DNA from: Medicago truncatula
Lineage: Eukaryota > Streptophyta > Magnoliopsida > Fabales > Fabaceae
Direction: 5' to 3'
DNA: 64,000 bases
Assembly: GCF_003473485.1 (NCBI RefSeq)
Contig: NC_053046.1
Location: forward strand, 40,261,832 to 40,325,831
Below the pieces are notes generated by a model, which saw only the letters and a program-made list of their open reading frames with translations, was not told where the DNA came from and did not search any database. Of the stretch, positions 42,837 through 43,093 are shown in pieces; positions within the stretch are counted from its first letter, which is position 1; each line of letters starts with the position of its first letter. The position numbers and the translations under genes were made by a program.

Positions 42837-42890
42837 GTCCCACATTGGGAAGATCAAGTGAAAGAGTGTGATAGGTTGGTTATAAATAAG
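42837..42890 (+). promoter_or_regulatory. Plant snRNA promoter: USE plus TATA box
   Basis: gtcccacattg at 42837-42847 matches the plant upstream sequence element (RTCCCACATCG) with one change. A TATA box, tataaataag, lies at 42881-42890. The 33-bp gap is the spacing known for RNA polymerase II snRNA genes in plants; polymerase III genes have about 10 bp less. Confidence 0.85.
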
Positions 42891-42907
42891 AAGTTAGTGA
42901 TACAGAA

Positions 42908-43078
42908 ATAGTTACATACCTGGACGGAGTCTTTGGGTGATCAAGGAAGCCCATGACTTAGACTGATGACTTCCATTGCACTAAAAAGGAAGGGAATTGG
43001 TCTAAGGTCTACCCAACGTTGGTAGTACCTACGTCGTAATTTGTGGTAGTGAGGGTGCTGCGTCCGCGCGGATCCCTC
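42908..43078 (+). ncRNA. U1 snRNA gene, divergent variant
   Basis: Spliceosomal U1 RNA, which pairs with 5' splice sites. Recognisable landmarks in order: a 5' end containing tacctgg; stem-loop I with gggtgatcaagga (U1-70K loop); stem-loop II with ccattgcact (U1A loop); tctaaggtct; an Sm site aatttgtgg at 43038-43046; and a final hairpin gctgcgtccgcgcg. The expected start lies about 27-31 bp after the TATA box. A 3' box-like agttcaa is at 43087-43093. Compared with the plant U1 that I remember, the 5' end reads ttacatacctgg instead of atacttacctgg. Alternatively it holds a four-base insertion (atagttacatacc). Stem-loop II and the last stem also carry changes. It could be an expressed variant or a young pseudogene. 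Confidence 0.85.
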
Positions 43079-43086
43079 TCTTATTC

Positions 43087-43093
43087 AGTTCAA
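43087..43093 (+). terminator. snRNA 3' box-like motif
   Basis: agttcaa fits the AGTNNAA core of the plant snRNA 3'-end formation box, about 10 bases after the predicted U1 end. Confidence 0.5.

Follow-up and report, generated by a model that had tools for sequence, protein, structure and literature searches.

A divergent U1 snRNA gene of Medicago truncatula, here designated L033, carries A in place of U at position 5 of its 5' splice-site recognition end, a change predicted to turn its preference towards donors reading GUAUGU. It lies in a window of 64,000 nucleotides (the whole stretch of DNA that was analysed) and was compared with the U1 family across the genome (430 Mb, 42 contigs). From these sequence comparisons, L033 may be an old U1 gene that has been kept under structural constraint and favours GUAUGU donors, a reading for and against which we find the case about evenly balanced. 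With a natural U1 that prefers U+4, donor choice would gain a second input open to test, and U1 copies would differ in target; were L033 instead a dying copy, it would still show the long separate evolution of a U1 gene from the main set.

L033 scores well above the gathering score of the Rfam U1 family (69.5 bits) with an E-value of 2.8e-27, which excludes a chance match, and Rfam together with a permissive scan of the window found, besides this U1, two tRNA genes only (Table 1). Plant snRNA genes transcribed by Pol II have a distance of 33-34 bases between USE and TATA box, and L033 possesses both elements at a distance of this type; its predicted fold and motifs likewise comprise the four stem-loops and the Sm site of a U1. 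A preliminary description of this DNA had proposed a full snRNA promoter with a 33-bp gap, an Sm site, U1-70K and U1A loops and a 3' box. The promoter, the Sm site and both loops are present, with the corrections that the USE departs by one letter from its consensus, that the 3' part of loop I is altered and that loop II has three additional bases. The 3' box stands in part, for AGTTCAA is found and the separate upstream CA is missing, when judged against what we take to be the consensus of this element. Loop I keeps GAUCA but departs from the ending AAG found in 23 of the 24 best-scoring copies of the genome; the longer loop II includes ACUAAAAAGG.

Table 1. Coordinates of the U1 gene L033, its promoter and motifs, and the duplicated segment, in positions of the window.
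Feature	Position	Strand	Remarks
Inverted, gapped shared segment	38104-47783	.	Matches stretch L049, 510 kb away, carrying L040
USE GTCCCACATTG	42837-42847	+	10/11 letters of RTCCCACATCG, C-to-T change; identical in L040
TATA box TATAAATA	42881-42888	+	USE-TATA gap 33 bases; 31 bases to RNA position 1; Pol II-type spacing
U1 snRNA variant, 167 nt	42912-43078	+	RF00003, 111.5 bits; predicted fold has all U1 elements (z -3.16)
5' splice-site recognition end UUACAUACCUGG	42912-42923	+	U5 to A at 42916
Stem-loop I, loop GAUCAAGGAA	42927-42959	+	U1-70K loop, 3' part altered; G-C pair 17/47 replaced by A-U (compensated)
Stem-loop II, AUUGCAC U1A motif	42960-43003	+	Loop 3 bases longer than canonical
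Stem-loop III	43005-43030	+	Predicted fold: 9 pairs, one bulge
Sm site AAUUUGUGG	43038-43046	+	Motif present in sequence
Stem-loop IV	43051-43078	+	GAGGG/CCCUC helix, UCCG loop, predicted fold
Partial 3' box AGTTCAA	43087-43093	+	Separate upstream CA of consensus absent

The canonical U1 genes of this genome (L009-L027 being examples) share with L033 the USE and TATA elements, their spacing, the four stem-loops and the Sm site, whereas L033 is set apart by A5 instead of U5, by its longer loop II and by GUGGUAGU where most canonical copies have GUUGCUGU after the Sm core. The pairing partner of donor position +4 is U1 position 5, and the 5' end of L033, TTACATACCTGG, is changed from U to A opposite that base, as had been described. 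An ordinary U1 bears ACUUACCUG, complementary to the donor consensus; L033 is not an ordinary U1, because its 5' end bears ACAUACCUG, complementary to GUAUGU. In model duplexes (nearest-neighbour energies, pseudouridine left out) the L033 end pairs fully with a GUAUGU donor, at -13.9 kcal/mol on CAG/GUAUGUAU, and leaves +4 unpaired on a GUAAGU donor, at -9.5 kcal/mol on CAG/GUAAGUAU, whereas the corresponding energies for the canonical end are -10.2 kcal/mol on GUAUGU and -14.0 kcal/mol on GUAAGU. The preference for GUAUGU over GUAAGU put forward in the preliminary description is accordingly borne out in the model, at 4.4 kcal/mol, and U5 to A is predicted to shift the preference of L033 from A+4 to U+4 donors (GUAUGU). 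A start four bases further upstream, which would give the RNA a four-base insertion at its 5' end, is less likely, since the TATA-to-start distance falls within the range of 29-32 bases seen across the 30 promoter-bearing U1 loci of the genome and the first-base T recurs in three canonical copies, L011, L017 and L020. Position -1 of L033 is G, which among promoter-bearing loci recurs only in L040, its closest relative.

The search for the U1 family returned 40 matches, 31 of them above the gathering score, with L033 ranking 25th. Thirty-two were aligned and the eight others, scoring 37.9-60.1 bits, were left out; 29 of the aligned loci have U at position 5 and only L033, L040 and L028 have A, and none of the eight weak matches has A there. 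The USE is exact in 26 aligned loci, has 10 of 11 letters in four and is absent from two, the particular change of L033 being confined to two of the 32 (L033 and L040). The exact pattern TACATACCTGGAYGG occurs at three places in the genome: L033, L028 and a repeat that by eye is unlike U1 and lies outside the U1 list. These counts bear on the view that L033 is expressed as an ordinary U1, or serves a non-splicing role such as suppressing premature polyadenylation, and that U5 to A is tolerated. Donors are degenerate and proteins also influence donor choice, and canonical copies do vary at position 1 (L024 also at position 2), all of which is in keeping with tolerance; however, the prevalence of U at position 5, with L028 the only A outside L033 and L040, and a predicted loss of 4.5 kcal/mol on GUAAGU relative to the canonical end speak against it, and we hold it to be unlikely.

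L033 is an old member of this family by its sequence, its RNA being 73-77% identical to the nearest canonical copies (best 12 matches listed), and the idea that it is a lone copy was rejected on finding a close sibling. Searching the genome at the DNA level with positions 42830-43110 gave 19 matches, among which, besides L033 itself, one is close (L040, 89%) and the next stands at 76%; the remaining 17 lie at, within or beside U1 copies or fragments from the family search.

The RNA of L033 is predicted to fold into helix H and four stem-loops at -60.3 kcal/mol, and none of 200 shuffled sequences folded as well. When compared with the majority sequence of the 24 top-scoring copies (all at 126.6 bits or above), which has 48 stem pairs, L033 differs at 15 pairs, of which six are compensated by changes on both sides, four have a change on one side yet remain paired, and five are broken in the fixed register. 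It keeps 42 of the 48 pairs, against 36.3 +/- 2.0 under random substitution matched in number and kind (p 0.0045), a result also obtained with other references (p 0.004 from L020, p 0.0006 from L028); the 24 best copies keep 43-48 pairs, so that L033 falls below every one of them. The same test gave p 0.06 for L028 and p 0.02 for L032, and found no excess retention in L040 measured against L033 (p 0.32). Since pairs are retained in excess in L033 and not in L040 relative to it, the pairing pattern indicates that, ahead of the duplication, the lineage of L033 was evolving as a functional RNA. When folded as naked RNA, L033 is predicted to be able to pair positions 1-5 with UGUG of the Sm region, a point against reading it as a constrained gene, and L028 is predicted to do likewise; the 5' ends of L032 and L018 are predicted to be paired too, in other ways.

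L040 (C5:39794198-39794466, minus strand) arose with L033 by an inverted duplication, the flanks of which differ by 10.7% substitutions (4484 aligned columns), with transitions symmetrical between the duplicates (131 versus 139). An initial estimate of 19% for the near flanks came from a loosely aligned stretch and was replaced by this lower figure, which makes the argument for constraint weaker. Divergence between the two RNAs is 9.6% (16 of 166 aligned bases), hardly less than that of the flanks, and the claim of constraint therefore rests on the asymmetry of the changes. Twenty RNA columns differ, of which 15 are polarised to L040 (column 119, one of these, only weakly), four to L033 and one neither way (15 versus 4, p 0.0096); counted as events, 17 are polarised, 13 on L040 and four on L033 (one-sided sign test, p 0.025). 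In two of the four changes assigned to L033, the state is also that found in L028 and L032 and could be the ancestral one. Polarised RNA substitutions on L033 number three, against 8.9 expected from the flank divergence (p 0.023, rising to 0.06 at a count of four when the remaining unpolarised site is charged to L033), and the 9:3 transition bias of the RNA gave p 0.08 when compared with the flanks. Between USE and TATA box the copies have one mismatch in 52 positions, where 5.6 are expected (p 0.025); over the whole interval from the USE to position -1, with 6 mismatches in 75, there is no conservation beyond expectation (p 0.31). To judge from these substitutions, L033 has probably been held under constraint since the duplication.

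L040 has decayed: its U1A motif is changed, helix H and stem I are broken, and it folds like shuffled sequence (z -0.86, with 42 of 200 shuffles as good). The picture of a lone decayed copy with broken stems, which the preliminary description would have taken as fatal to its proposal, fits L040 and not L033, in which the U1A motif and Sm site are kept and the stems are not disrupted. Its suggestion that L033, if unexpressed, is a young pseudogene is rejected on the low identity to canonical copies, on a sibling duplication with flanks so far apart, on the retained fold and on the compensated pairs. A formerly functional variant that is by now an early pseudogene, or that is transcribed and rapidly degraded, in either case having no effect on splicing, is a serious competitor, to which we allow an appreciable probability somewhat short of even. 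The changed USE, the altered loop I, the G at -1 and the partial 3' box would all suit incipient decay, as would an RNA divergence from L040 close to that of the flanks and the fact that L040 has already gone this way; the few polarised changes of L033 since the duplication, its full fold and the conserved interval between USE and TATA box argue to the contrary. For rapid degradation there is a parallel in humans, where four tested U1 variants are poor substrates of TOE1 and three of them have half-lives under 10 minutes (PMC7328512).

A tree of 30 loci was drawn with the first 12 bases removed and a midpoint root, leaving out L035 and L038 (which have no promoter) and the eight weak matches. 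It sets L033, L040, L028, L032 and L037 apart from the remaining 25 (support 96/90). L032 and L037 keep U5 and have other lesions in the recognition end. Position 5 requires at least two changes on this tree and none of 200 bootstrap trees (0%) unites the copies with A5; a single origin uniting L028 with L033 and L040 is nonetheless not rejected (AU test, p 0.44). L028 (C7:25990869-25991029, minus strand, in L052) scores 137.1 bits and has the same U5-to-A change, its end likewise reading ACAUACCUGG. It shares with L033 that change, its side of the tree and a fold that is largely intact (45 of 48 pairs), and differs in an AU start, an exact USE, a loop II of normal length and a less regular TATA box; by score, it is perhaps a better candidate than L033 for a functional variant. 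L028 belongs to a cluster of U1 copies (C7:25979897-25996350) with L032 and L037 as neighbours, and weak U1 matches L041 (C7:25992860-25993031, minus strand) and L044 (C7:25995992-25996122, minus strand) lie directly behind the full copies L037 and L032, the part repeated in L044 being the 3' half.

Several animals have variant U1 genes, fly and silk moth among them (references listed in PMC4291461), and variants with changed 5' ends are among those known (PMC5159530). The human vU1 genes resemble L033 as divergent U1 paralogues, although they belong to another kingdom; they are transcribed by Pol II and many have altered bases where U1 proteins or the donor are bound (PMC5159530). Arabidopsis has 14 U1 genes, 10 of them judged likely active, the active ones averaging 87% identity (PMC545797). 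Titles and abstracts, among which subscription journals are thinly covered, yielded none dealing with this locus or with any plant U1 altered in its recognition end.

Most Arabidopsis donors favoured in the presence of U6 methylation can be told from those favoured in its absence by the base at +4, and U+4 donors gain when U6 is unmethylated because this U is able to pair with the middle A of the ACAGA box in U6 (PMC9803359). Should L033 be functional, its transcript would receive a cap and enter U1 particles at a low level, and these may help to define U+4 donors, whose U could afterwards pair as well with the middle A of the ACAGA box where that A is unmethylated. An A5 U1 would in this manner favour, at an earlier step, the same U+4 donors as unmethylated U6. 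The stronger proposition that there is in this plant a second long-lived U1 lineage dedicated to U+4 donors (GUAUGU), which pair fully with U1 and then with unmethylated U6, strikes us as quite improbable; were it true, the choice of U1 copy and U6 methylation would jointly decide between two classes of donor.

The window contains several other repeated features. Upstream of the U1 gene, a segment of about 0.9 kb is duplicated in tandem at 80% identity (39143-40047 and 41399-42278). The two tRNA genes are both tRNA-Glu(TTC), at 46479-46551 and 59805-59879, and lie inside a repeated stretch of 155 bases that is 85% identical. A long self-inverted stretch at 56506-57606 is perhaps a mobile element, as is perhaps an inverted repeat of 91% identity formed by 23558-24095 with 24770-25311.
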